The notes under the pieces were generated by a model. The model did no database searches and was not told the origin of the DNA. It saw nothing but the letters and a program-made list of their open reading frames with translations. Below are positions 36,804 to 44,984 of a stretch of DNA of 45,562 nt, piece after piece. The stretch comes from a bacterium. Its GTDB lineage: Bacteria; Bacillota_I; Bacilli_A; Izemoplasmatales; Hujiaoplasmataceae. How positions within the stretch are numbered: the stretch's first letter is position 1; every line of letters starts with the position of its first letter. Both the position numbers and the translations under genes were made by a program. The stretch spans positions 1 to 45,562 of the forward strand of contig JAUXXX010000068.1 in the NCBI GenBank assembly GCA_030684695.1, in the 5' to 3' direction.

Positions 36804-36848
36804 ATCAAATGGTTTTTTATAAAAAGAAATGGTTTAAGGAGGATGACT

Positions 36849-38150
36849 ATGATTGTACAAAAAGCAAAGGGAATTCATATTGACGGGCGTAAATCCATGT
36901 CCAAAGAGCTCCCATTGCAAGACTACCTCAATCCTCAGTTTGTCTATATTCATTTACTTCGTCAAACAGAAAGTTTGAAACGCGTAGTAGAAGTTGGCGA
37001 ATACGTAAGAATTGGACAAGTTGTCGCTTTGCGGGAAGGATGGGGCCCACTGCCCATCCATGCTTCGGTCAGTGGAACAGTTACTGCAGTGAAAAAAGTG
37101 TGGCATTCATCAGGAAAAATGGTCGATGCAATTGAAATCAAGAACGACTTTTTAGGTGCAATGGATGATTCCATCACTCCTGAAAAAGATCCATCAAGCC
37201 TAACAAAAGAACAATTGGTTGAGAAAATGAAACAAGCAGGACTTTCAGGACTCGGTGGAGCTGGTTTTCCAACATTTGTAAAATATCAATCCAAGTTACC
37301 CATTAACACTGTTATCATCAACGCCGTGGAGTGTGAACCTTACATTACGAGTGATTACATGATGATTGACAGGTACCCAGAAAAACTACTAAAAGGACTT
37401 CATTACATGATGGCTTCTGTAGGCGCAACACGTGGTGTGGTAGCGTACAAAGCCTATAATTCTCATATTACTGATGTTCTTACACCATTCCTTCCACTAT
37501 ATCCAGGGATAGAAATCTATTTATCCAAGGATATATATCCAGCTGGTTGGGAAAAATATTTAATTCAACAAATTACGAAAAAAACATACAATTCTTTGCC
37601 TTCTGAAGCTGGAGCGATTGTGAATAATGCCCAAACAGCTATGGTTTTTGCTGATATGGTGGAGCATAATGTTCCACTGATTGCACGCGGAATTACCATC
37701 ACTGGCGAAGGAATCAAACAACCAAGAAACTTCTTGGTTCCCATTGGAACACCAGTCAAAGATTTGATTGAACAATGTGGTGGCTATATCGATGGACTCG
37801 ATTCGACAAAGACCAATTACATCGCTGGTGGTCCAATGACAGGAAGAGCGATTCTCATTGATGACTTGATTGTAAATGATACTTTAGGCTCCGTCATCAT
37901 CCGTCCAATTCCAGATCCGAAACTTTCGGTAGAATGTATGGGATGTGGAAAATGCGCTGATGCATGCCCCGTCTTTTTAACACCTACTGAAATCTGGCAC
38001 GCTTCCGAACGCGGCGATATTGAGGCTGTAAAAAGATTAAAGGCATCGAAGTGTATGGGATGTGGACTTTGTTCTCATGTTTGTCCTTCTCATATTGATA
38101 TTACTGATTTTGTAGACAAAGCCAAAGCTTTGATTCGGAAAGGAGCGTAA
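36849..38150 (+). CDS. rnfC: Rnf complex subunit C
   Basis: The 433-residue peripheral subunit holds an NADH/FMN-binding region (GLSGLGGAGFPTFVK, INAVECEPYI) like the Nuo51 family. Two [4Fe-4S] motifs lie at CMGCGKCADACP (from C363) and CMGCGLCSHVCP (from C402). It connects NAD to the membrane part of the ferredoxin:NAD oxidoreductase. ATG 36849 is 6 nt after AAGGAGG (36836-36842); ATG 36843 touches the site. It is first in the order C-D-G-G-E-A-B. Confidence 0.95.
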   Translation: MIVQKAKGIHIDGRKSMSKELPLQDYLNPQFVYIHLLRQTESLKRVVEVGEYVRIGQVVALREGWGPLPIHASVSGTVTAVKKVWHSSGKMVDAIEIKNDFLGAMDDSITPEKDPSSLTKEQLVEKMKQAGLSGLGGAGFPTFVKYQSKLPINTVIINAVECEPYITSDYMMIDRYPEKLLKGLHYMMASVGATRGVVAYKAYNSHITDVLTPFLPLYPGIEIYLSKDIYPAGWEKYLIQQITKKTYNSLPSEAGAIVNNAQTAMVFADMVEHNVPLIARGITITGEGIKQPRNFLVPIGTPVKDLIEQCGGYIDGLDSTKTNYIAGGPMTGRAILIDDLIVNDTLGSVIIRPIPDPKLSVECMGCGKCADACPVFLTPTEIWHASERGDIEAVKRLKASKCMGCGLCSHVCPSHIDITDFVDKAKALIRKGA

Positions 38151-38152
38151 AG

Positions 38153-39322
38153 ATGGCCCGTTTTTCTGCTGGAAAAGCTCCATTCATCCGGATTGCGGAT
38201 GAAAAAAATCAAGGAACACAAGTCATTATGCGTGACTTTATTATTGGTTTGTTACCTATTATTTTATTTGCTTGGTATAAAAATGGAATTAAAGTATATC
38301 TAGAAGGAAATGTTTCTTTTCTAGAAATGCTTTATCCTTTGGTATTTATCTTGCTTGGAGGACTGATTTCGTTTTTAATGGAAGGCTTATTTTTCATGAT
38401 TACGGATCCTAAACTTCGTGAGTTAAAACCACTTATGAATAAAATATCGACCTCATTTGCATTGATTCCTGGATTATTACTTGCGATGGTGCTTCCATTG
38501 TATACTCCTATTTGGGTATTGATCTTTGGGGCATTCATGGGTACGATCGTTGGAAAAATGTTATTTGGTGGATTTGGTCACAATATCTTTAATCCAGCCT
38601 TACTTGGGTACATTGCGGTAGGATTCACCCTAATTGGGGTCATCAACGCCAATGGTGGTGTCATGAACCAAAGCGAAGTGTTGATTGATGCATATGCAGG
38701 AGCAACACCTTTATCACTTCTTGCTAACATCAAAACCATCAATTATGATCAATTGGTTACTCCTTACGGAACTTTGTGGAATTTCTTTATTGGAACCATT
38801 CCTGGAGCATTAGCAGAAACTGGAGCATTGGCAATTATCATTGCTTATGTTTGGTTAAGTTATCGCAAAGTATTAAAATGGTTTACTCCTTTGATTTATG
38901 TCGGAACAGTCTTTATCGTTTCATGGGTATTAGGTGCTGTCGTAGGAGATGGTGGAGTATGGTTCCCACTGTATAGTATTTTATCGGGTGGATTGATGTT
39001 TGGGGCAGTGTTGATGGCTACTGAACCTGTAAGTTCTCCGAAGAATCCACTAGGAAAAGTATTTATGGCCTTACTGTTAGGGGTATTAACAGTTTTATTT
39101 CGTTATGTTGGCAACTATCCAGAAGGTGTGGGAACATCGCTTATTCTTCTCAATATTTTTGCGATGCCACTGGATCGCTTTAGTGCGACCATTCGTGCTG
39201 AAGGATACAACAAAAAATCATCGATTATCAAAATTACATTGTTTCTTTTGTTTGTCTTAGCCATCGCAGCCTATGCGATCATTAAGGCAAATGGAATGTA
39301 TACAGCAGGAGGTATTATCTAA
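38153..39322 (+). CDS. rnfD: Rnf complex subunit D
   Basis: The 389-residue membrane protein (about nine to ten segments) has the covalent-FMN motif DAYAGATPLS with T185 as the expected FMN-linked Thr, as in NqrB/RnfD. FGGFGHNIFNPAL is a further family block. Starts 2 bp after rnfC; its last base overlaps the next ATG. It forms part of the electron and ion path through the membrane. Confidence 0.94.
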   Translation: MARFSAGKAPFIRIADEKNQGTQVIMRDFIIGLLPIILFAWYKNGIKVYLEGNVSFLEMLYPLVFILLGGLISFLMEGLFFMITDPKLRELKPLMNKISTSFALIPGLLLAMVLPLYTPIWVLIFGAFMGTIVGKMLFGGFGHNIFNPALLGYIAVGFTLIGVINANGGVMNQSEVLIDAYAGATPLSLLANIKTINYDQLVTPYGTLWNFFIGTIPGALAETGALAIIIAYVWLSYRKVLKWFTPLIYVGTVFIVSWVLGAVVGDGGVWFPLYSILSGGLMFGAVLMATEPVSSPKNPLGKVFMALLLGVLTVLFRYVGNYPEGVGTSLILLNIFAMPLDRFSATIRAEGYNKKSSIIKITLFLLFVLAIAAYAIIKANGMYTAGGII

Positions 39323-40428
39323 TGAAAGCATACTTCCAAAAGAATAAATTGTTATTATTATTTAGTTCGATTTTGATTCTTATCTTTGTTATTGGGGGTA
39401 TCTACTCTCGATTCATGACCAACCAAATTACGTTCCATCAATATAAAGATTTATTTGTTGGAACGACGAATTTAGTCGAATATACGCCTGAAGAAGAGGT
39501 TGATTCTACGGTTTTAGGTCCGGACACTTCTTTAGTTCGTAGTTTTAAAGCGTATGTTGGACAAGAACATAAAGGATATATCTACGTAGTAGAAACCAAA
39601 GGCAGAATGAAGGGCCTTCAAATTGCCTATGCGATTGATCTGGCTACTGATCAAGTAGTAGGTGTCAAAGTGATGCAGTCCAAGGAAACTCCAGAGTATT
39701 TCTCACGGTTGACTCCTGAATTTTTCAATCAGTTTGTCAATTATGATTTGTTTGTTGTAACGATTTCTATTGATACAACAGCAGGGGCGACTGTTTCATC
39801 TGATGCTTTTAGAGTTGCGCTTCAGTATGCAAGAATGCAGTATATGAAAGATACGGATTTTGCTCTTCCTACCAAATTGGTTGAAGTAAACTCTGTTCGA
39901 TACAACACCGATTTTGCGACTCTTGGATCCAATCCAATCATTGTCAATATTACAGACTTATCTACTAACAAAACGATGGATGTATCAGTGTCTGGGGTGT
40001 TTAATTTTATTCAAGTACTGACTCCTGGAATGCCTACTCCCTCAGTTGATGCGCTGTTAGAAATGAAAAATGATTTATCTCTCAATTATCTCTCTTACTC
40101 AAGAGTTTATGCAGTGAGTTTCGATAGTGATTCGTTACAGTTGGTGGTTCGAACCAGAGGATATGCAGGAAATATTACCTTTACTTTTGTACTAAATGCA
40201 GAAAAGACAGCAATTGTCTCAACCGCTTCGATTCAATCTGTAGAAAGTTATGAAGATGGTGGTTATAGCAATCATGGTTCTGTTCCTGGCTTAGAAACTT
40301 ATTTGCTCAATCGCTATTTGAATAATCAGTCAATTGATACAACAGCAGGAGCGACTGGTACATTCAATGGAATGACCCGTTTGTTCACCTATTTAGACTT
40401 GATATTTTCAGGAAACGGAGGCCAATAA
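39322..40428 (+). CDS. rnfG: RnfG-like protein 1, two FMN-binding domains
   Basis: The 368-residue protein is about twice the usual RnfG length (about 190-210). One N-terminal membrane segment (about 9-28) is followed by two FMN-binding domains. Flavinylation-type motifs are DTTAGAT with T157 and DTTAGAT with T345. The second domain (about 255-360) is clearly related to the second domain of the next protein (GNITFTF/GNITVTF, SIQS...ESY.DGG). The domains should lie outside the membrane. GGAGG for the next gene is inside its last codons (GGQ). Whether each Thr carries FMN depends on an ApbE transferase, which is not in this window. Confidence 0.86.
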   Translation: MKAYFQKNKLLLLFSSILILIFVIGGIYSRFMTNQITFHQYKDLFVGTTNLVEYTPEEEVDSTVLGPDTSLVRSFKAYVGQEHKGYIYVVETKGRMKGLQIAYAIDLATDQVVGVKVMQSKETPEYFSRLTPEFFNQFVNYDLFVVTISIDTTAGATVSSDAFRVALQYARMQYMKDTDFALPTKLVEVNSVRYNTDFATLGSNPIIVNITDLSTNKTMDVSVSGVFNFIQVLTPGMPTPSVDALLEMKNDLSLNYLSYSRVYAVSFDSDSLQLVVRTRGYAGNITFTFVLNAEKTAIVSTASIQSVESYEDGGYSNHGSVPGLETYLLNRYLNNQSIDTTAGATGTFNGMTRLFTYLDLIFSGNGGQ

Positions 40429-40430
40429 CG

Positions 40431-41525
40431 ATGAATAAAGGATTGATATCCGGACTCGTATTATTAGTGATTGGCCTTGTTTGCGGGGCTTTACTTGCAG
40501 GAATTAACGCATTCACTTCGCCAGTCATACAAGAAAATGCGATGAATGCAAAACTTCGAATTTTAAGTGAATTCTATATAGTTGAAAATTATGATGTAGA
40601 GGTCATCTCATTAACAGGCCCTATTGACACCGTCTTTTTACTAAGAAACAAAACAAACACCACCGTTATTGAACAAGTGGTTTATAGCGTTAGAGCAAGA
40701 GGATATCAATCAGACATCGTCATGCTTATTGCTTTAAATACCGATTTAACCGTAGACCAATATAAAGTAGTGAGTCAGGGAGATACTTCAGGCATTGGAG
40801 ATGTCATTATCGGATATGATTTCGGCATGACTGGTCAACCAATTGCTAACTTGGACGCGTTTGCAGGTCCATCCCCTAAGTTTACAGTGGATGCTGTATA
40901 TGCTTGTTTCCAACTCGTTGGAGCAAGAGCATTGATTGATCTTGCGGATTTTATTCAACCAGCAAATTTTACTTTAGACTCCATTCGCTATAATTTAGAC
41001 CCCAGTAGCTTTGTACAAAGACCCTTTATTCTTACAGTTTCATTTAGTCCAGGAAATAATGTTGTCGAAATGTATTTAGCGATTGATTTTAGCTTTGTAG
41101 CATTGGTGGACGAATCTGTAAGTGTACCAAATGATGATGTTCTTGCAAGCATCAAACTACAAGCACAAACGATGACTGCAGTATCGCGACGTACATTTTT
41201 CCAAACATTCAATCCAGAGAATCAACAATTAGTGGTCAAATCATTTGGGTTTGAGGGAAATATTACGGTCACATTCCAACTAAATGGGACACTCGATGAT
41301 GTGTTAAGTGTGGTATCTATTCAATCAGATGAATCCTATTCAGATGGTGGATTTTCAACCTACGGCCAAGCTCCTGGCTTTGAAACACACATTCTTAATC
41401 TATTTGTAAACAAACAAACAATTAACTTTGATGCATACTCAGGTGCAACATACACCGAAAATGCATTATCTAGAATGATCAACTTAGTAAACTTATTCCT
41501 AAATGCTGGAAATGGAGGTCAATAA
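40431..41525 (+). CDS. RnfG-like protein 2, one intact and one degenerate FMN motif
   Basis: The 364-residue tandem paralogue has a typical RnfG N-terminus (LLAGINAFTSPVI after a membrane segment at about 5-25). Its first FMN motif is replaced by DAFAGPSP (142-149): Pro-Ser stands where Ala-Thr should be, so it probably cannot be flavinylated. The second, DAYSGAT (334-340), is canonical with T340. The C-terminus GNGGQ equals that of protein 1, because the same codons include the ribosome binding site GGAGG for the next gene. It starts 2 bp after protein 1. Presence of two RnfG-like genes in one rnf operon is unusual. Confidence 0.84.
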   Translation: MNKGLISGLVLLVIGLVCGALLAGINAFTSPVIQENAMNAKLRILSEFYIVENYDVEVISLTGPIDTVFLLRNKTNTTVIEQVVYSVRARGYQSDIVMLIALNTDLTVDQYKVVSQGDTSGIGDVIIGYDFGMTGQPIANLDAFAGPSPKFTVDAVYACFQLVGARALIDLADFIQPANFTLDSIRYNLDPSSFVQRPFILTVSFSPGNNVVEMYLAIDFSFVALVDESVSVPNDDVLASIKLQAQTMTAVSRRTFFQTFNPENQQLVVKSFGFEGNITVTFQLNGTLDDVLSVVSIQSDESYSDGGFSTYGQAPGFETHILNLFVNKQTINFDAYSGATYTENALSRMINLVNLFLNAGNGGQ

Positions 41526-41526
41526 G

Positions 41527-42186
41527 ATGAATCAAAAAGAAAACTTCCTTAAAGGATTTATCAAAGAGAACCCATTGTTTGTTTCAGTGTTGGGAACATG
41601 TCCATCTTTGGCAATTACTACATCTGTTGAAAACGCCATTGGAATGGGAATAGCCGTATTGTTTGTATTGGTTTTATCAAACTGGATCATTTCGATGCTA
41701 ATGGTGAATGAAAAAATGCGGGAGTGGATCAAACCGGTTCGAATTCCAGTATTCATTGTCGTTATCGCTACATTAGTGACGGTTGTGGAAATGGTGATGC
41801 ATGCCTATTTAGTTAGTCTTTATGAAAGTCTCGGTGTATTCATCCCCTTGATTGTTGTGAACTGTATTATTTTGGGTAGAGCAGAAGCGTTTGCTTCGAC
41901 CAACAAACCAGTCAGTGCGATTGTTGATGGGGCAGGGATGGCGCTGGGGTATACATTTGCATTATTACTTATCAGCTTAGTTCGAGAATTATTGGGAAGT
42001 GGGACGTTAACCATTTGGGGAGATTTATCTTTGAATTTACGATTCCTCTTTGATTTCCTAAGAATTACTCCCATTGACATGTTTACCAAACCTGTAGGTG
42101 CATTCTTGACATTTGGATTTATTTTGGCAGTTATTACTGCTTTATCCAATGCAAAACAAGCCAAATTAAAAAAGGCGGTGAAGTAA
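41527..42186 (+). CDS. rnfE: Rnf complex subunit E
   Basis: The 219-residue membrane protein has about six segments. NPLFVSVLGTCPSLAITTSV and VVNCIILGRAEAFAS carry the family Cys residues, which in Rnf/Nqr coordinate an iron cluster between subunits A and E. ATG 41527 is 8 nt after GGAGG (41514-41518) lying within the end of the preceding gene; an upstream in-frame start is rejected. Confidence 0.95.
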   Translation: MNQKENFLKGFIKENPLFVSVLGTCPSLAITTSVENAIGMGIAVLFVLVLSNWIISMLMVNEKMREWIKPVRIPVFIVVIATLVTVVEMVMHAYLVSLYESLGVFIPLIVVNCIILGRAEAFASTNKPVSAIVDGAGMALGYTFALLLISLVRELLGSGTLTIWGDLSLNLRFLFDFLRITPIDMFTKPVGAFLTFGFILAVITALSNAKQAKLKKAVK

Positions 42187-42187
42187 C

Positions 42188-42763
42188 ATGGCAGAGCTCA
42201 TTACATTAGCGTTCGCAGCCTTTATCACTGAAAATGTTATTTTATCTCAATTTCTAGGGATTTGTCCGTTCCTTGGCGTTTCGAAAAAAAGAAGTTCTGC
42301 CATGGGTATGGGTTTTGCAGTCTTGTTTGTTACGTTGTTATCCTCGATTGTTACCTGGTCGATGTATCGTTTTGTTTTAGTTGCACTCGAGCTACAATAC
42401 CTTCGTACCATCGTGTTTATTCTCGTCATCGCTGCATTGGTTCAAATGGTTGAACTGGTCATAAAGAAGATTTCTCCTGCTTTATATAAAGCATTAGGAA
42501 TCTACTTACCATTGATTACAACCAATTGTGCTGTGTTAGGGGTTGCTTTGTTAAATATTGATAAAAACCATAATTTCGGCCAAATGCTAGTTTACTCCAC
42601 GTTTATTGCACTAGGATTTATGTTCGTGATGTATATTTTCTCGATGATGCGTGAGAAAATGGAATTTTCTCCTATTCCAAATGCATTTAAAGGAATTCCA
42701 ATAGCATTGGTTGTAGCAGCAATCTTAGCGATGATCTTTGCACGTTTTGGAGGAATTGTCTAA
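42188..42763 (+). CDS. rnfA: Rnf complex subunit A
   Basis: The 191-residue membrane protein has about six segments. It contains ENVILSQFLGICPFLGVSK and TTNCAVLGVALLN, each with the conserved Cys, and is homologous to RnfE in inverted topology. It starts 1 bp after rnfE, and its last base overlaps the rnfB ATG. Length is normal for RnfA (about 190). Confidence 0.96.
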   Translation: MAELITLAFAAFITENVILSQFLGICPFLGVSKKRSSAMGMGFAVLFVTLLSSIVTWSMYRFVLVALELQYLRTIVFILVIAALVQMVELVIKKISPALYKALGIYLPLITTNCAVLGVALLNIDKNHNFGQMLVYSTFIALGFMFVMYIFSMMREKMEFSPIPNAFKGIPIALVVAAILAMIFARFGGIV

Positions 42764-43050
42764 TGCAAATATTGATTCCTGCGTTGGTTTTAGGAGGAAC
42801 AGGGTTAATTTTAGGATTGCTTATCTACGTGGTTGGAAAGTATTTTCACGTTGAAGAAGACAAACGCCTTGAACGAATCATTGAGTTATTGCCAAGATAT
42901 AACTGCGGCGCTTGCGGTTTTCCAGGTTGTCAAGGAATGGCAGAAGCTCTTCTTACTGGGAAGGTAAAGCCAGCACAATGTAAACCAATCAAAAAAGAAG
43001 ATAAAGAAGTACTTGAGCGACATATGAGCGAAATTTTAGGTCAAAAATAG
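42763..43050 (+). CDS. rnfB: Minimal RnfB: membrane anchor plus four-Cys domain only
   Basis: The 95-residue protein has a hydrophobic segment (about 4-26) and one four-cysteine cluster, C48, C51, C56 and C73 (NCGACGFPGC then QC), of the RnfB/4Fe-4S type. It ends at GQK followed by TAG. Characterised RnfB proteins continue with two or more ferredoxin-like [4Fe-4S] motifs that take electrons from ferredoxin; these are absent. No ferredoxin-like CxxCxxCxxxC stretch follows in any frame before the terminator at 43071, so this is not a frameshift. Start overlaps rnfA by one base. Confidence 0.88.
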   Translation: MQILIPALVLGGTGLILGLLIYVVGKYFHVEEDKRLERIIELLPRYNCGACGFPGCQGMAEALLTGKVKPAQCKPIKKEDKEVLERHMSEILGQK

Positions 43051-43070
43051 CATTACACACACATAGTAAC

Positions 43071-43099
43071 AACACCACATACCTGTGGTGTTTTCTTTT
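43071..43099 (+). terminator. Terminator of the rnf operon
   Basis: AACACCACA (43071-43079) pairs with TGTGGTGTT (43084-43092) around TACC, followed by TTTCTTTT. Confidence 0.88.
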
Positions 43100-43229: not shown

Positions 43230-44360
43230 ATGAAAAAATTAAGTTTATTAGCTCTACTTGTTGTTGCAACGTTTGCATTCATCGGATGTCAAACAACAGC
43301 AGCACCAACAACAGCTGCACCAACAACAGCTGCACCAACAACTGTTGCACCAACAACAGTCGCACCAACAACCGCTGTAAAAGAATTCAAAGTTGACGGA
43401 GATTTCACAGCGTTTGTAGCAGAAGTTCATACTAACGGAGCACAACAAGTTACAATGGTCACTGTAACAATCACAAACGGTGTTATCACCGGTTACAAGA
43501 TTGATGCAAGACAAGCAGTTAAAGTTACAGATACCAAAGGTACTGAAGACACTGCAGATGACACCTACACCTTTACTTGGAATGCTCAAACCAAGGTAGA
43601 ATTAGGTTTCAACTACAGAATGCATTATAACACCTACAGAAACTCTTTAACTGATCCTGCTACCGCCAACCAAGCAGGATACGAAGCTTGGTTAACAGCA
43701 AATAATAGAAACGAATGGCATACTCAAGCAGCTTTAGTTGAAGCTTATTGGTTAGCTAATGGCGTTGCTGCTATGGAATATGATGCAACTACCAAAGTGA
43801 TTTCTAATGTTGCTGGTGTTACTGTGAAAAACAGTGGATATACTGCACTTGCTTTAGAAGCTATTGAAAATGCAAGAGCTGGAAAATTCCAAGCAATCAA
43901 AGCTACTGGAACAGACCTTTACATCGCTTCGATGATCAAAGCAGAAAATGGAACAATTTCTGAGTTAAAATTAGACGTTCGTCAATTATTTACAGCTAGA
44001 ACAGACAAATCTAAATTTGCGTGGAACGTTGCTACAAAACAAGAACTTGGATTTGCCTACAGAATGCATTACAACACTTACAGAAATTCTTTAACTGATC
44101 CAGCTACTGCTACCCAAGCGGGATACGAAACTTGGCTAACTGCTAACAACAGATTAGAATGGTTCCAACAAGCGAACATCATTACTAATTACATTATGGC
44201 AAATGGTTGGAACGCTTCTTACCAAGCAGTTCCAGCAACATCTGCAGGAATTGGAATGTCTCTTGATGGAGTAACACCTATTTCCGCTACTGCAGGAGTA
44301 ACCATTAAGTCTCAATCTTACTTCGATGTTTTATCTTACCTTTTCGCAAAAGTCGCTTAA
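43230..44360 (+). CDS. Lipoprotein with Thr/Pro tether and two FMN-binding-like degenerate repeats
   Basis: The 376-residue protein has a signal peptide with lipobox FIGC (lipidated C20), a tether of five A-P-T-T-A/V repeats (25-49) and two homologous domains. Residues 124-163 and 272-311 are identical at 36 of 40 positions. Each domain ends with a block like the FMN-binding family: VAGVTVKNSGY (194-204) and TAGVTIKSQSY (354-364), resembling D-x-x-S-G-A-T but with Val before the Thr and no Asp. Two FMN-type domains on a lipoprotein recall PplA, the extracellular electron-transfer flavoprotein of Listeria. Flavinylation is doubtful because the motif is altered. Strong promoter and binding site suggest high expression, and the gene lies just after rnf. 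Confidence 0.72.
   Translation: MKKLSLLALLVVATFAFIGCQTTAAPTTAAPTTAAPTTVAPTTVAPTTAVKEFKVDGDFTAFVAEVHTNGAQQVTMVTVTITNGVITGYKIDARQAVKVTDTKGTEDTADDTYTFTWNAQTKVELGFNYRMHYNTYRNSLTDPATANQAGYEAWLTANNRNEWHTQAALVEAYWLANGVAAMEYDATTKVISNVAGVTVKNSGYTALALEAIENARAGKFQAIKATGTDLYIASMIKAENGTISELKLDVRQLFTARTDKSKFAWNVATKQELGFAYRMHYNTYRNSLTDPATATQAGYETWLTANNRLEWFQQANIITNYIMANGWNASYQAVPATSAGIGMSLDGVTPISATAGVTIKSQSYFDVLSYLFAKVA
43302..43376 (+). repeat. Five 15-bp coding repeats in the lipoprotein tether
   Basis: Five tandem 15-bp units each code for A-P-T-T-A or A-P-T-T-V. The first two are identical (GCACCAACAACAGCT). Recent expansion or length variation is plausible. Confidence 0.85.
43599..43718 (+). repeat. 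Internal duplication in the lipoprotein gene, copy 1
   Basis: Codes for residues 124-163. The second copy is at 44043-44162 (residues 272-311). The proteins differ at only four of 40 residues. Confidence 0.85.
44043..44162 (+). repeat. Internal duplication in the lipoprotein gene, copy 2
   Basis: Second copy of 43599-43718; the four changes are Asn to Ala, Asn to Thr, Ala to Thr and Asn to Leu. Confidence 0.85.
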
Positions 44361-44377
44361 TTCACATACCTAAAATT

Positions 44378-44410
44378 AAAAGTTGCCTCGGTGGCAACTT
44401 TTTCTTTTTG
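44378..44410 (+). terminator. Terminator after the lipoprotein gene
   Basis: AAAAGTTGCC (44378-44387) pairs with GGCAACTTTT (44393-44402), followed by T-rich sequence. Confidence 0.9.
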
Positions 44411-44456: not shown

Positions 44457-44984
44457 ATGAATGAACTTCAATGGATTGTTCCAATCATCGGGATTCTTTT
44501 CAGTGCTTTTTCAATCTTTTTGTTCTTGTTTCGACTACAACGAAAAAAACAAGTTCAAGTGATTATGTCCATCATCACTCAAGAACTCATAGATTGTTCT
44601 TGTACCTACTTTTCTAACACTCATACTATTTCTTGTATTTCAGATAAGTACGAGTATTCATTCAAGATGGTATTTATGCCATCTGGAAGTGAACTGATTA
44701 TTACCAACGAAACATATTGGTGTATCAATACGAATTTATCGGGATGGAAACGATCTACAAAACCCGATTTGGTTGATGGTGTAACCACTTTTCTTGCTAA
44801 AAAGCCTTCTAGGCAGATACCTATGAAAAGAATTGCTATTTTAACACCTTCAGCACATAACATTACCCGCTACCTCAATGAAAGTGATGTTGAGATTGTG
44901 AAACCTGGTGATATTGCATATGGAGTTTACTTTTTGCGAGTCCAAGATTTAGCTGATTTTTTGGCGAAGCTCGAGCGAAAATAG
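44457..44984 (+). CDS. Membrane-anchored protein of unknown function
   Basis: The 175-residue protein has one N-terminal hydrophobic segment (about 6-26) and then basic RLQRKKQ, so the bulk is probably cytoplasmic. The soluble part contains three Cys (in LIDCSCTYF and HTISCISD), ETYWCINTN and a C-terminal RVQDLADFLAKLERK helix. KRIAILTPSAHNITRYLN and GDIAYGVYFLRVQDL could form a small alpha/beta domain, faintly like nuclease-related folds, but I cannot assign a family. It has a strong ribosome binding site. No terminator before the tRNA gene. Confidence 0.75.
   Translation: MNELQWIVPIIGILFSAFSIFLFLFRLQRKKQVQVIMSIITQELIDCSCTYFSNTHTISCISDKYEYSFKMVFMPSGSELIITNETYWCINTNLSGWKRSTKPDLVDGVTTFLAKKPSRQIPMKRIAILTPSAHNITRYLNESDVEIVKPGDIAYGVYFLRVQDLADFLAKLERK

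Follow-up and report, generated by a model that had tools for sequence, protein, structure and literature searches.

The closest described relatives of the system considered here are the canonical RnfABCDGE complexes of C. tetanomorphum (structure 7zc6), A. woodii (9eri) and A. vinelandii (8ahx). A 45,562-nucleotide stretch of DNA (hereafter 'the window'), which is a complete contig (JAUXXX010000068.1) of a 1.93-Mb, 87% complete metagenome-assembled genome from the order Izemoplasmatales, contains an intact operon of this type, ordered rnfC-D-G1-G2-E-A-B and encoded entirely on the + strand. Its RnfC, RnfD, RnfE and RnfA proteins, together with a core RnfG that corresponds to the N-terminal part of G2, are like those of the canonical complexes: the site for reduced nicotinamide adenine dinucleotide (NADH), both [4Fe-4S] motifs of RnfC (CxxCxxCxxxCP, twice), the covalent flavin mononucleotide (FMN) motif of RnfD, and the cysteines of RnfA and RnfE (GTCP/GICP and NC, which fit a membrane [2Fe-2S] site) are all intact, and the CDGEAB order is that found in Clostridia. 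The window operon differs in encoding a second G protein (G1), in having two FMN_bind domains in each G protein, and in possessing an RnfB of 95 residues without ferredoxin-like clusters. On balance, the evidence leans toward an arrangement in which an Rnf core (C-D-G2-E-A-B) carries G1 as a flavin side branch, leading outward to a lipoprotein encoded nearby.

Extracellular electron transfer (EET) of the Listeria FmnB/PplA type employs a lipid-anchored protein, flavinylated by ApbE, that contains two FMN_bind-like domains. The lipoprotein encoded in the window is alike as a likely last carrier, a likeness drawn by description; among solved structures it comes closest to 2kzx and 3o6u. The Listeria protein receives its electrons from Ndh2, quinone and EetAB, whereas those considered here would come from Rnf. 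Multi-flavinylated RnfG proteins within RNF gene clusters were reported in 2021, and a bifurcated path to outside acceptors was proposed with them (Meheust 2021, PMC8238504). In contrast to those proteins, the multi-flavin G1 of the window stands beside a separate and ordinary RnfG, is accessory, is accompanied by a dependent lipoprotein, and contains no multi-heme domain; the window operon may nonetheless be among the unnamed clusters of that study. The unidirectional NQR/RNF-like systems, for which one-way export via an NqrB/RnfD-type subunit to an FMN_bind protein has been proposed (PMC8238504, PMC11334425), comprise two subunits, the membrane subunit bearing a fused NAD-binding domain, whereas the window encodes a full CDGEAB set. 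A literature search on duplicated rnfG returned no relevant paper, and as far as such searches tell, the division between a core G2 and an accessory G1, the late copy of an outer module on G2, the lipoprotein that depends on G1 and the shortness of RnfB throughout the clade are new.

A core RnfG and an accessory G1 subunit

The initial annotation of this DNA had described two tandem, double-length RnfG proteins in a single rnf operon, each with two FMN_bind domains. Both reading frames indeed lie between rnfD and rnfE, and a search with the PF04205 profile finds two stretches in each protein (368 and 364 residues), so that an architecture of one domain per protein does not hold; relative to the Pfam gathering cut-off of 22 bits, three of the four domains pass singly, and the C-terminal domain of G1 (hereafter the 'outer' module) falls slightly under it. 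G1 begins with a transmembrane helix (residues 9-42), which is followed by the two FMN_bind domains and their acceptor motifs, and by sequence it fits the multi-flavinylated, extracytosolic class. Its AlphaFold2 model, with a predicted local distance difference test (pLDDT) score of 85.8, shows alpha/beta domains behind a single membrane helix at the N terminus, and its best match in the PDB is the C. tetanomorphum RnfG (7zc6_G, E=3e-7).

Of the 34 genomes sampled from the family, 30 encode relatives of G1, and the two-domain protein recurs in most of the sampled genera, complete genomes included. Nearly all carriers possess the two-domain form (31-41% identity to the window protein); one genome, G018, encodes a three-domain G1 of 586 residues, and in genus g9 G1 is short and limited to the C-type domain, the member G016 retaining just a 69-residue transmembrane stub (L114). 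Operons without G1 also occur, in G019 (L112), in G016 (L114, stub only) and in family f2 (L109), and because of them core Rnf can be regarded as able to dispense with this protein; G1 is an accessory subunit, not a core one. The RnfD proteins of family f18, other Bacilli of the same class, carry two fused FMN_bind domains of the G1 C-terminal type (L107:6348-8633 and L108:2315-4516), an arrangement that places the outer module beside RnfD. The Asp of the acceptor motif is replaced in these fusions (NPVSGAT in L107).

The N-terminal half of G2 matches positions 1-128 of TIGR01947 (E=2.5e-14, below the curated cut-off). In nearly all relatives, the gene after G1 encodes a distinct G2 of ~177 residues, the size of an ordinary single-domain RnfG, and the 364-residue G2 of the window is therefore an exception. 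While the initial annotation took two double-length RnfG proteins as the basic design, that view has to be abandoned, given the single-domain G2 of the relatives and the accessory nature of G1. In a tree of single domains, the two G1 domains and the N-terminal domain of G2 form three groups, and the C-terminal domain of the window G2 falls within the G1 C-terminal group, where its sister is the outer module of the window G1 (support 90/91; blastp identity 35%, E=7e-35); from this nested position it follows that it represents a lineage-specific copy of the outer module fused to G2. Judged by its sequence, G2 is an ordinary RnfG that bears a late domain copy. A second elongated G2, in G029, arose independently, its C-terminal domain deriving from the N-terminal domain of G2 in the same tree. 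An assembly error or a split gene as the origin of the pair is ruled out by the recurrence of G1 across many genera, complete genomes among them, and by the divergence between the two C-terminal domains, which are only 35% identical.

The putative acceptor threonine of the G1 N-terminal domain, T157, is invariant in 22 of 22 aligned proteins, and the acceptor of the outer module is Thr or Ser in all family members that have this domain. While the earlier assignment of flavin sites to T157 and T345 of G1 and to T340 of G2 stands, the fourth motif (DAFAGPSP), previously read as destroyed, is better regarded as a weak serine site: it is degenerate in the window (DAFAGPS, with Ala replaced by Pro and Thr by Ser) but retains the acceptor hydroxyl at Ser148. 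Sampled orthologues of this domain keep Thr or Ser, the nearest displaying DAFAGPT and others FDAVAGxT. ApbE is reported to accept Ser at a 10-55% lower yield and to tolerate replacement of the leading Asp by Ala (PMC12052999); no data were found in the literature on an Ala-to-Pro change in the FMN acceptor motif. The two G proteins together are thus predicted to offer three strong sites for covalent FMN and one weak one, Ser148. The host genome encodes one ApbE, of the extracytoplasmic type (E=1.1e-45) and with a lipoprotein-like signal.

The downstream lipoprotein and its dependence on G1

The two features that bear most on function, the short RnfB and the lipoprotein encoded 3' of the operon, lay outside the initial annotation. 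The lipoprotein contains a lipobox (LLVVATFAFIGC), a Thr/Pro-rich linker and two FMN_bind-like repeats that are homologous to each other (hhalign, 99.9%), and each repeat ends in an AGVT motif whose threonine is a candidate acceptor (T198 in NVAGVT, T358 in TAGVT). The solved structure closest to its model (pLDDT 86.4) is 2kzx (E=4.4e-4), with a weaker resemblance to 3o6u. A bridge to the FMN_bind family is provided by L111:10117-10563, a homologue with one repeat that the profile clearly recognises (E=1.5e-6). Over 18 family members the acceptor Thr or Ser is kept in both repeats, mostly with a leading Asp. The lipoprotein of G018, the genome with the three-domain G1, is 829 residues long (L056:9636-12125) and comprises about three tandem copies of the usual protein.

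Where an rnf operon can be seen in a genome of family f1 or f2 (excluding G015, whose contig ends inside rnfE), 27 genomes carry both G1 and the lipoprotein, and two carry G1 only (G005 and G006). Nine lack both, namely G016, G019 and seven members of f2; the lipoprotein is never present without G1. Fisher's test gives 3e-7 for f1 and f2 together and 0.013 within f1, values that are not true probabilities because the genomes are related. Other members of the genera to which G016 and G019 belong carry both genes; in G016, both losses affect one operon, in which Orf175 directly follows rnfB, and its sister species have both. The order of dependence, in which the core occurs without G1, and G1 without the lipoprotein, but never the lipoprotein without G1, fits an electron order from core Rnf to G1 to lipoprotein.

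The path of electrons and its alternatives

In the arrangement that we favour, the N-terminal domain of G2 would shuttle electrons between the iron-sulphur cluster of RnfA/E and RnfD, while G1, probably docked at RnfD, would draw electrons from the outer-face pool through its N-terminal FMN and pass them via its C-terminal FMN to the lipoprotein, which would in turn reduce an acceptor outside the cell; the outer module copied onto the end of G2 in the window lineage would add one more flavin. Judging by the relatives, electrons probably pass out to the adjacent flavin lipoprotein. This reading is favoured because of the conservation of acceptor residues, the presence of ApbE, the G1-free cores, the pattern of co-occurrence, the f18 fusions, the independent domain gains, and the intact entry through RnfC and RnfA/E. 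The initial suggestion of a longer electron wire, or of a branch to an outside acceptor, is retained to the extent that extra covalent-FMN domains are predicted and that such a branch is probable, in view of the conserved acceptor Thr of G1, the ApbE in the genome and the co-inherited FMN_bind-like lipoprotein nearby.

Several observations weigh against an outward branch of this kind. The motifs of the window lipoprotein lack a leading Asp (ISNVAGVT and ISATAGVT), the Pfam FMN_bind profile gives no match in that protein and matches one of the 18 members at E=0.058, and its repeats align weakly with the G domains (hhalign). The lipoprotein gene may have its own transcript, as a terminator-like hairpin stands between it and rnfB; such hairpins are a weak signal here, 8 having been detected against a chance expectation of 5.7. 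The counts of co-occurrence are phylogenetically non-independent, the operon end of G019 lies beyond its contig, and G005 and G006 have kept G1 without the lipoprotein. In addition, the Mollicute Peloplasma, which has a plain rnfCDGEAB operon, was not stimulated by anthraquinone disulfonate (AQDS) or ferrihydrite (PMC11122141), and so no Mollicute example of such respiration is at hand.

Some of the same facts would suit an internal relay, in which the additional FMNs extend or buffer the path from RnfA/E to RnfD, nothing is exported, and the lipoprotein gene lies nearby without being functionally related: G005 and G006 have G1 but no lipoprotein, the hairpin sets the lipoprotein gene apart, and RnfC, RnfA and RnfE are intact, as is the motif of RnfD. 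We nevertheless consider such a relay unlikely, as the core operon persists without G1, so that a relay would be unnecessary, and as the lipoprotein, itself FMN_bind-like, never occurs without G1. Somewhat less likely again is that G1 and the lipoprotein supply reductant to an enzyme or repair system of the envelope (for instance one acting on thiols, sulfoxides or in oxygen detoxification), and not to a respiratory acceptor outside the cell. Flavinylated systems with such roles have been described (PMC8238504), a thioredoxin gene and a thioredoxin-reductase-like gene are found upstream in the window (at about 33 kb), and a small FMN_bind protein adjoins a nitroreductase-like gene on contig C120; however, the thioredoxin pair is an observation on the window itself, and the operons of relatives contain no conserved envelope oxidoreductase, Orf175 being the only conserved neighbour. 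Neutral accretion, whereby small and readily duplicated FMN_bind domains build up and the added copies contribute little, would accommodate the recurrent, independent gain and loss of domains (L056, L050, L058-L061, L114) and the degrading N-terminal motif of the window G2, but is very improbable given that an acceptor Thr or Ser is present in essentially every copy despite 30-40% identity, and that G1 and the lipoprotein are lost together.

For the favoured outward branch, the existence of natural operons with G1 and the lipoprotein, with G1 only, and with neither offers a clean test of the published idea of branching at a multi-flavin RnfG. Were that branch real, free-living Mollicute relatives seen as plain fermenters could export electrons via Rnf and thereby gain ion-motive force.

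The short RnfB, the host and other flavin loci

The window RnfB consists of a transmembrane helix and a single iron-sulphur domain (Cys 48, 51, 56 and 73), and neither a Fer4 dicluster nor C-terminal ferredoxin-like clusters were detected in it with Pfam. The C-terminal domains of described RnfB proteins contain 2-7 [4Fe-4S] clusters that take electrons from ferredoxin (PMC12174285), and in a Monoglobus comparator, whose gene order is the same, RnfB has 355 residues and several Fer4 motifs. In 80 relatives, the N-terminal RnfB matches listed are short frames of about 70 to 160 residues, whereas what matches the C-terminal portion of the RnfB profile lies in separate frames, mostly of several hundred residues; within the class, families f7 and f18 also have a short RnfB. 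A frameshift is ruled out as the cause of the shortening, since rnfB genes of the same length recur throughout the order and the sequence 3' of the stop codon holds no Fer4-like frame. The loss of the ferredoxin-like domain throughout the sampled order raises the question of the electron donor of these complexes: judged by their sequences they are Rnf by descent, yet ferredoxin input as in the described complexes cannot be assumed. The NADH entry route via RnfC is intact.

A broader and more tentative scheme would extend these features to a clade-wide Rnf electron exporter in the Izemoplasmatales and related wall-less Bacilli, in which a stripped RnfB, G1 at RnfD and the lipoprotein as terminal reductase might couple an ion pump directly to EET without quinones or cytochromes; we regard it as possible, with the balance tilted against it. 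No cytochrome c3 was found in the host genome, which is incomplete. Cultured relatives are described as wall-less (PMC8397711, PMC10470597), and the host itself would be so if it is like them. A contig search with the G1 alignment retrieved relatives where a single-protein G1 query gave no match; the nearest named carriers, free-living kin of Mollicutes, bear the labels Candidatus Izemoplasmatales, Tenericutes or Bacillales UBA5603, and among them is Mycoplasmatota bacterium zrk2, whose genome is complete (CP076020.1). 'Two Rnf complexes' have been noted in earlier genome papers for Ca. Izimaplasma, and NqrBCDEF for strain ZiA1, in passages that leave the G subunits undescribed (PMC6256511).

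The positions of the operon genes, flavin-binding domains and adjoining features are collected in the table below; the RnfD motif listed there is present in most relatives.

Features of the rnf region, in window coordinates (acceptor residues are predicted)
Feature	Position	Strand	Details
rnfC	36843..38150	+	435 aa; NADH/FMN domain, SLBB; TIGR01945 E=2.4e-95, above cut-off; PF01512, PF13375, Fer4
rnfD	38153..39322	+	389 aa; PF03116 E=9.8e-64; covalent-FMN motif IDAYAGATP, acceptor T185, codon 38705-38707
G1	39322..40428	+	368 aa; PF04205 E=1.6e-12, 2 stretches
G1 FMN_bind N domain	39622-39831	+	33.8 bits; acceptor T157, codon 39790-39792, DTTAGAT
G1 FMN_bind C domain (outer module)	40159-40383	+	21.1 bits; acceptor T345, codon 40354-40356, DTTAGAT
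G2	40431..41525	+	364 aa; PF04205 E=9.8e-11, 2 stretches
G2 FMN_bind N domain	40701..40874	+	profile match 40701-40868; acceptor Ser148, codon 40872-40874, DAFAGPS
G2 FMN_bind C domain	41247..41483	+	23.8 bits; acceptor T340, codon 41448-41450, DAYSGAT
rnfE	41527..42186	+	TIGR01948 E=5.8e-65, above cut-off; start taken at 41527, hence approximate
rnfA	42188..42763	+	TIGR01943 E=3.5e-71, above cut-off
rnfB (short)	42763..43050	+	95 aa; PF04060 the sole family above cut-off
Terminator-like hairpin 3' of rnfB	43071..43092	+	
Lipoprotein gene	43230..44360	+	376 aa
Terminator-like hairpin 3' of lipoprotein gene	44378..44402	+	
Orf175	44457..44984	+	adjoins the lipoprotein gene in most relatives

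Orf175 is conserved and membrane-anchored, and is found 3' of the lipoprotein gene, or directly 3' of rnfB where that gene is missing. A different, second complex is encoded elsewhere in the host genome (contig C88; L071:3597-7507, minus strand), consisting of an NqrB/RnfD-like protein (315 residues), an NqrC-like protein (210 residues, DSIVGATR), RnfE/A-type subunits and an NqrF with 2Fe-2S and flavin adenine dinucleotide (FAD)/NAD domains; no NqrA or RnfC gene adjoins it, and it resembles the NqrBCDEF of ZiA1. In family f3, a divergent lipoprotein (L067:9507-10910), which combines a rhodanese domain with FMN_bind-like repeats, adjoins an rnf operon with a single G protein of 650 residues. 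The host genome also encodes a membrane-anchored FMN_bind protein of 143 residues (L072:7059-7490, DAIAGVT) whose gene overlaps a nitroreductase-like gene, and similar small frames of 130-145 residues are found in many relatives.

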